Made by a program: the position numbers and the translations under genes
Shown: one piece after another, positions 42,857-55,959 of the stretch
Layout: the number at the start of each line of letters is the position of its first letter
How positions within the stretch are numbered: the first letter of the stretch is position 1
From: an uncultured Clostridia bacterium
Lineage (GTDB): Bacteria > Bacillota > Clostridia > Christensenellales > CAG-138
Assembly (NCBI GenBank): GCA_947168855.1
Contig: CAMVNO010000004.1
Coordinates: forward strand, 1 to 64,000
Length of the DNA: 64,000 nt
Direction of reading: 5' to 3'
Notes under the pieces: model-generated
Told to the model about the DNA's origin: nothing
Databases searched by the model: none
The model's input: only the letters and a program-made list of their open reading frames with translations

Positions 42857-43121
42857 GGGGATGTTAAGAAAGCGTCTTGCATTTCTTAACATCCCCTATG
42901 AATTGCAGCACGGCTGCATGAATTGCCTGACGGCATGAATCGACTTCGCCGTGAATTGACAACTTTGTTGTCATTTATGAAGGTTTTCCGTTCGGAAAAC
43001 CGACCTTCATGACGGCATTGCCGTCAATTCATGTCCAAAGGACAATTCACGGAGCGAAGCGAGAATTCACGAAGAGGGTGTTCGGAAACAGTTCTATGTT
43101 TCTGAACACCCTCTTTTTTTT
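42857..43121 (+). repeat. Multi-hairpin intergenic element, full copy 1 (between hsp20 and spo0A)
   Basis: GGGGATGTTAAGAAA...TTTCTTAACATCCCC hairpin, serial short palindromes separated by ATGAATTG/CAATTCATG, central TTTTCCGTTCGGAAAA hairpin, final GAGGGTGTTC..GAACACCCTC-T8 terminator. Confidence 0.85.
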
Positions 43122-55690: not shown

Positions 55691-55959
55691 GGGGCTGTTC
55701 AAAAACGCTTTGAACAGCCCCAATGCATTCTCGCTTCGCTCCGTGAATTGTCCAAAGGACATGAATTGTGCCTTGCGGCACATGAATTGACGCCGAACGG
55801 CGTCATGCAGGAAGATTTTCCGTACGGAAAATCAACATTCATGTGACCTTTGGTCACAATTCATGCCGAAGGCAATTCATGGCGCAGCCAATTCATGCGG
55901 CAACGCCGCAATTCATCGGGGATGTTAAGAACTGCCGATCAGAGTTTCTTAACATCCCC
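55691..55959 (-). repeat. Multi-hairpin intergenic element, full copy 2 (between pckA and pepF)
   Basis: On the minus strand same module order as 42857-43121; GGGGATGTTAAGAA hairpin at the pckA side, GGGGCTGTTCAAA hairpin-T5 at the pepF side. Confidence 0.85.

Follow-up and report, generated by a model that had tools for sequence, protein, structure and literature searches.

The IVS elements of 23S rRNA can carry an open reading frame for the IVP/S23p protein (PF05635, TIGR02436). To our knowledge, neither a function nor a mechanism of mobility is known for these elements and their protein, no catalytic activity is known for IVP, and proteins annotated as 'four helix bundle protein' are a widespread orphan group. 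IVS elements are reported to have replaced tetraloops, and their ORF has been proposed to serve mobility (PMC4990558). IVP resembles Avd of the diversity-generating retroelements (PMC10053308). Among other small palindromic repeats, REP sequences are recognized by a conserved tag, GTAG or CGTC, that adjoins the palindrome (PMC3733652).

Here we analyzed a string of hairpins in a 64,000-nt stretch of DNA from an uncultured Clostridia bacterium (the window), which an earlier note made from the letters alone had singled out. We consider it probable, at roughly 60%, that this feature is a gene-less, non-autonomous mobile DNA element of an IVP-linked family that is exchanged for terminator hairpins.

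Results

Anatomy of the element

Positions 42857-43121 are a string of hairpins that fills the intergene separating hsp20 from the gene for a spo0A-like response regulator, and the hairpins described in the earlier note are present in the sequence, starting 18 nt 3' of the hsp20 stop. RNA folding of this segment, a check proposed in that note, gave a compact string of hairpins at -129.3 kcal/mol, compared to a mean of -70.6 (sd 5.1) for shuffled sequences (z = -11.6); 0 of 200 shuffles reached the native energy.

On the plus strand, the element begins with a terminator-like hairpin, GGGGATGTTAAGAAA-loop-TTTCTTAACATCCCC (42857-42896), bounded by the limit of identity among seven 269-bp copies. 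The left half-array (42898-42972) follows, with the linker RTGAATT and the arms GCAGCACGGCTGC, GCCTGACGGC, CGACTTCGCCG and GACAACTTTGTTGTC (covariation helices 1-4), and then a central hairpin, ATGAAGGTTTTCC-GTTC-GGAAAACCGACCTTCAT (42977-43010; helices 5-6 of alignment A1). In the right half-array (43011-43049) the linker is AATTCAY and the arms are GACGGCATTGCCGTC and GTCCAAAGGAC (helices 7 and 9 of A1); the arm GCGCC..GGCGC, found in most copies in A1, is missing from this one. The unit CGGAGCGAAGCGAG-AATTCA (43050-43069), which contains GCGAAGC, is (nearly) invariant across 28 aligned copies. The right terminal hairpin, GAGGGTGTTC..GAACACCCTC plus a T-run (43074-43121), is the terminator of the hsp20 transcript, and a plain terminator lies at the orthologous position in the relatives G004 and G008. 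The element ends GGGGATGTTAAGAAA and GAGGGTGTTCAGAAA match at 12 of 15 positions, and each end is itself a hairpin.

Two details of the earlier description changed. While the string of hairpins stood, CGGAGCGAAGCGAG is not a hairpin over its full length, as only the internal GCGAAGC forms a minihairpin. The box shared between hairpins is a real recurrent motif, but ATGAATTG gives its last G, and CATGAATTG its C, to the closing pairs of the arms, so the linker is best read as the 7-nt RTGAATT. As the right-half arms carry the reverse-complement linker AATTCAY, the element as a whole forms an inverted double array flanked by two terminator-like hairpins.

Copies, layout and covariation

The genome that contains the window (G000; 2.42 Mb, 16 contigs) has about 27 double elements in addition to some 11 simple arrays, and the box-arm-box pattern TGAATYG-N5..24-TGAATYG matches it 175 times versus 0 for a reversed control. 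The second copy reported for the window is real, a 269-bp element on the minus strand at 55691-55959, 3' of pckA. It belongs to a subtype of seven 269-bp copies, five of them identical, that differ pairwise at 0-2 positions and lie at unrelated loci; by this comparison, therefore, the double element has been recently mobile and multiplies within the genome. In the relative G021, a separate set of near-identical copies combines end hairpins and cores as mosaics. The copy search in the host genome and its relatives that the earlier note had called for thus found further copies in both, and of the natures it had offered, a multi-arm mobile repeat is the one that agrees with the copy number, the near-identical recent copies and the lack of an Rfam match at gathering level. 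One copy in G000 (C7:54170-56022) is interrupted by about 1.85 kb within the loop of arm GCGCCTTCCGGCGC; the insert was considered as an autonomous version and rejected, as it has two small lipoprotein-like ORFs and no transposase.

Across 28 aligned elements from three genomes the order of parts is a left terminator-like hairpin, four palindromic arms with RTGAATT, a central hairpin built around TTTTCC-NNNN-GGAAAA, two to four AATTCAY arms, the conserved unit GGAGCGAAGCGAG and a right terminator-like hairpin. In the 46-pair structure, 97.0% of cells are paired and 15 pairs show changes on both sides, with 70 doubly changed cells observed versus 16.5 in shuffled data, a signal abolished when partners are slid by 1-3 columns. 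The arms covary and the linkers do not, consistent with arms that keep pairing through sequence turnover. Double elements in G006 and G003 (L334-L337) have an extra compound insert of 60-150 nt, CCACTTCG..ATCGCGCG..CATGCTTCG, in the left half-array.

Simple arrays of RTGAATT units occupy other intergenic places, some upstream of genes, and are absent in some relatives. At the site C1:15980 and its ortholog in G021 (L509), the array position and the last arm were retained while the remaining arms were swapped for different palindromes. Arm sequence thus appears to change fast, with palindromy and linker persisting. A second linker family, ATATCG/CGATAT, was seen in G004 (L512) and in the L039/L031 neighbourhood of G000, with arrays where G000 has RTGAATT arrays.

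Sites of the element in relatives

To read the sites, flanks from the element's own genome were joined and searched in four relatives. At all seven readable sites, including hsp20-spo0A (12 ortholog comparisons), relatives without the element have a 25-40 bp terminator hairpin with A- and T-tracts, which folded in all 12 comparisons. In the element's own genome the flanking tracts are mostly retained and the terminator hairpin is gone, with the element in its place. No direct repeat flanks the seven near-identical copies, nor do the compared sites show a target duplication. By these comparisons, the element occupies, at the checked sites, the precise position of the intrinsic-terminator hairpin of relatives, and termination now falls to its end hairpin together with the host T-run. 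The element may instead have inserted beside the old terminator, which was then lost, but such a loss would have had to occur cleanly at every site.

Neighbouring genes could be called for 25 double elements. The flanking pair is convergent in 14 cases, tandem in 11 and divergent in 0, compared to a background of 163, 623 and 168, respectively (convergent excess, p = 2e-5). One end of the element is typically 10-20 nt 3' of a stop codon. At two further loci in G000 (L037, C5:116868; L038, C6:81911) the right-end hairpin is found alone, without an array, in the role of a plain terminator.

Loop statistics suggest single-stranded DNA

Loops were surveyed in 218 distinct arms, drawn from G000 and from other genomes. 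Read on the AATTCA strand, GNA accounts for 56 of 130 three-base loops versus 4 for TNC, its counterpart from the opposite strand, and GNNA for 44 of 88 four-base loops versus 1 for TNNC. GNRA makes up 24 of the 44 GNNA loops, so there is no GNRA bias or purine preference. Wobbles as the single mismatch number 22 on the AATTCA strand and 6 on the other (p = 0.004). C-GNA-G and C-GNNA-G are extra-stable DNA minihairpin loops, while RNA would favour GNRA. Given such loops on one strand without a GNRA bias, the arms may be used or made as single-stranded DNA, not RNA. Since the halves are inverted, no more than half of the arms could have the favoured sense on a single transcript. Oriented GC skew gave no significant replication-strand bias for simple arrays (23 versus 15 of 38, p = 0.32).

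IVP genes and distribution of the arrays

Among 127 genes beside 75 genuine array loci, the sole clearly recurrent family is PF05635 (23S_rRNA_IVP), with five members. At L438 and L371 the double array encloses the IVP gene, at L415 and L434 the two lie side by side, and at L519, L523 and L541 a related double array is adjacent to the gene. IVP genes in relatives have inverted double arrays of the same layout with other linkers (GTTATAT, ATGATG, GTGATG, ACGATAT and TGAAAT), mostly directly 5' of the gene and often beside a tRNA gene and its terminator. An automatic test found inverted double arrays at 9 of 30 IVP loci (p = 1.5e-6 versus 0 of 89 control loci in the same genomes); inspection by eye gave about 16 of the 30. 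Mapped on the IVP tree, the linker changes 7 times, near the minimum of 6 and versus 14.3 when shuffled, the one extra change being L527, where the automatic test missed the array. Because linker dialect follows the IVP tree and arrays adjoin IVP genes, the linker resembles in its behaviour a code by which the IVP clade would recognize its arrays. Based on these genomic comparisons, the array family belongs with the 23S_rRNA_IVP (four-helix-bundle, Avd-like) genes, each IVP clade apparently having its own linker. IVP is present in 27 of 30 array-rich genomes versus 80 of 367 others (p = 6e-14, ignoring kinship, with 13 of 26 array-rich genomes in one family).

No intact IVP of the RTGAATT type was found in the element's own genome (97% complete). 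Its only PF05635 match is a decayed IVP gene (L537, C1:1-300) that follows a tRNA gene and its terminator, and an ATGATG-type array survives there as remnants. No IVP was found in G021 despite its near-identical recent element copies, all RTGAATT-clade IVP genes of this analysis come from other clostridial genomes, and within the genus the number of IVP genes shows no correlation with that of arrays. Either the cognate IVP is unassembled or lost in these two genomes, or IVP is not the mobiliser.

The window element itself has sequence matches within its genus only. RTGAATT arrays are patchy across one clostridial order, with about 26 array-rich genomes of the palindromic type in ten families among 397 genomes scanned. 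In GTDB contigs, genuine palindromic arms occur in gut Clostridia MAGs and in one MAG labelled Synergistes (L374), where genuine arrays outside the Clostridia may reflect lateral transfer or a misbinned contig. Eight viral-labelled IMG/VR contigs (L459, L467, L472-L474, L479, L480 and L484) also have genuine palindromic RTGAATT arrays, by phage carriage or as misclassified host DNA. Other pattern matches outside the Clostridia (Tychonema, Bacteroidetes, Rhodococcus and others) were rejected as tandem repeats without palindromic arms, as were those in some f4 genomes. Three IVP-bearing genomes, G130 (C18:43058-43436), G409 and G311, have tandem TGAATTG/TGAATTA repeats that are not palindromic; those of G130 lie 44 bp from an IVP gene.

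Discussion

Comparison of copies and sites shows mobility and replacement of terminators; the enzymology, with IVP acting in trans, is our inference. The arms would act as single-stranded DNA hairpins, as their one-strand C-GNA-G and C-GNNA-G loops suggest. The cognate IVP would bind hairpin plus linker and, together with host nucleases or a polymerase/reverse transcriptase, would swap the element for a terminator hairpin, in parallel with the rRNA IVS elements said to have replaced tetraloops. Given the resemblance of IVP to Avd, a reverse transcriptase or a host nuclease is a possible partner of IVP. A more general scheme, which we put forward tentatively as somewhat less than an even chance, is a transposase-less two-component system in which each IVP clade reads its own 7-nt linker in single-stranded hairpin arrays and exchanges the array element for other hairpins (terminators or, in the classical IVS, rRNA tetraloops), with gene-less arrays spread in trans.

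It is also conceivable, but unlikely, that the element is a strong bidirectional terminator that spreads when A-tract/T-tract hairpins undergo gene conversion or illegitimate recombination with one another, with IVP a passenger of the same hairpin-rich hot spots. Every full copy does have terminator-like end hairpins, such hairpins also stand alone (L037, L038), G021 shuffles end hairpins and cores, and the element's own genome lacks an intact cognate IVP. However, hitch-hiking does not explain why linker dialect tracks IVP phylogeny or why the layout of array and IVP is near-constant across several dialects. The reading as a structured 3'UTR RNA or as a processing or decay element, both raised in the earlier note, appears slightly less likely still; here an RNA-binding protein would occupy the arms and linkers in the mRNA tail. 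Its appeal is a position 10-20 nt past stop codons, a terminator at the end and a very stable RNA fold. Yet the element occurs in both orientations, a copy between convergent genes is common to both of them, simple arrays are found 5' of genes as well, the favoured hairpin strand is on opposite DNA strands in the two halves, the tetraloops are GNNA without a purine preference, and relatives with plain terminators manage without the element. On this evidence neither is supported as the element's primary nature.

Least likely, at perhaps one chance in ten, is a REP/BIME-like element mobilized by a Y1 HUH transposase (TnpA_REP/RAYT) that recognizes hairpin and flanking motif. A conserved motif does flank hairpins with DNA-type loops, and the element's own genome has one weak Y1_Tnp/RAYT-like gene (C4:245329-245616). 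However, the motif is RTGAATT, not GTAG or CGTC, arm sequences vary inside one array, Y1_Tnp is missing from G051 (100% complete, 26-30 array matches), G012, G013 and other array-rich members of the genus, and no inverted double array lies close to any of the 29 Y1_Tnp loci. The Y1_Tnp/RAYT-like gene (L132; 181 aa, slightly under the Pfam cut-off) has REP sequences of the GTAGGGACGGGC..GCCCGTCCC type nearby, a separate REP system.

Returning to the IVP-linked element, the two-component reading would, if true, give the 23S rRNA IVS protein a function, and the clade-by-clade link of IVP to a hairpin-array repeat code is a question open to a simple binding and swap experiment. The element also shows one way for a selfish sequence to overwrite many terminators of one genome, and it represents an abundant repeat class of uncultured gut Clostridia that annotation overlooks.

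Comparison with known systems

In line with the earlier note, which did not recognize a named ncRNA, REP or MITE family in it, the element matched none of the families it was compared with here. Rfam 15 gave 0 matches in the window at the gathering score, and a permissive scan gave sub-threshold chance matches only (best RAGATH-32, 17.6 bits versus 41.8). In open-access journal papers we found no description of the box sequences, of clostridial palindromic arrays or of IVP with hairpins. CRISPR arrays have long repeats and unique non-palindromic spacers, whereas here a 7-nt linker separates palindromic arms. Like an intrinsic (Rho-independent) terminator, the element has end hairpins with A/T tracts in terminator position, but about 190 bp of conserved double array lies between them. 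It is small, gene-less, multi-copy and has inverted ends like a MITE, but no target-site duplication and no matching transposase were found for it, and it takes the place of its target hairpin without interrupting it. With REP/BIME/REPIN sequences and TnpA_REP (REPtrons) it shares short palindromes with a constant flanking motif, an intergenic place 3' of genes, an inverted arrangement and a motif that covaries with the protein clade, yet it has no GTAG/CGTC tag (its linker being RTGAATT), free arm sequence and no Y1 transposase association, and is a fixed-layout unit of about 270 bp in place of terminators.

The closest likeness is to the IVS elements, as the same protein family lies beside or inside autonomous-looking arrays, distribution is patchy and a hairpin is replaced, an rRNA tetraloop for IVS and, analogously, a terminator hairpin here (7 of 7 sites in relatives). 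However, these copies lie between protein genes instead of in rRNA, many per genome, and each end consists of 3-4 palindromic arms joined by a 7-nt linker specific to the clade, where an IVS has one long stem; the window copies have no IVP/S23p ORF. With the gene and the rRNA location absent, they are not IVS by definition. The element is new among small palindromic mobile elements, and its link to IVP proteins is unexpected.
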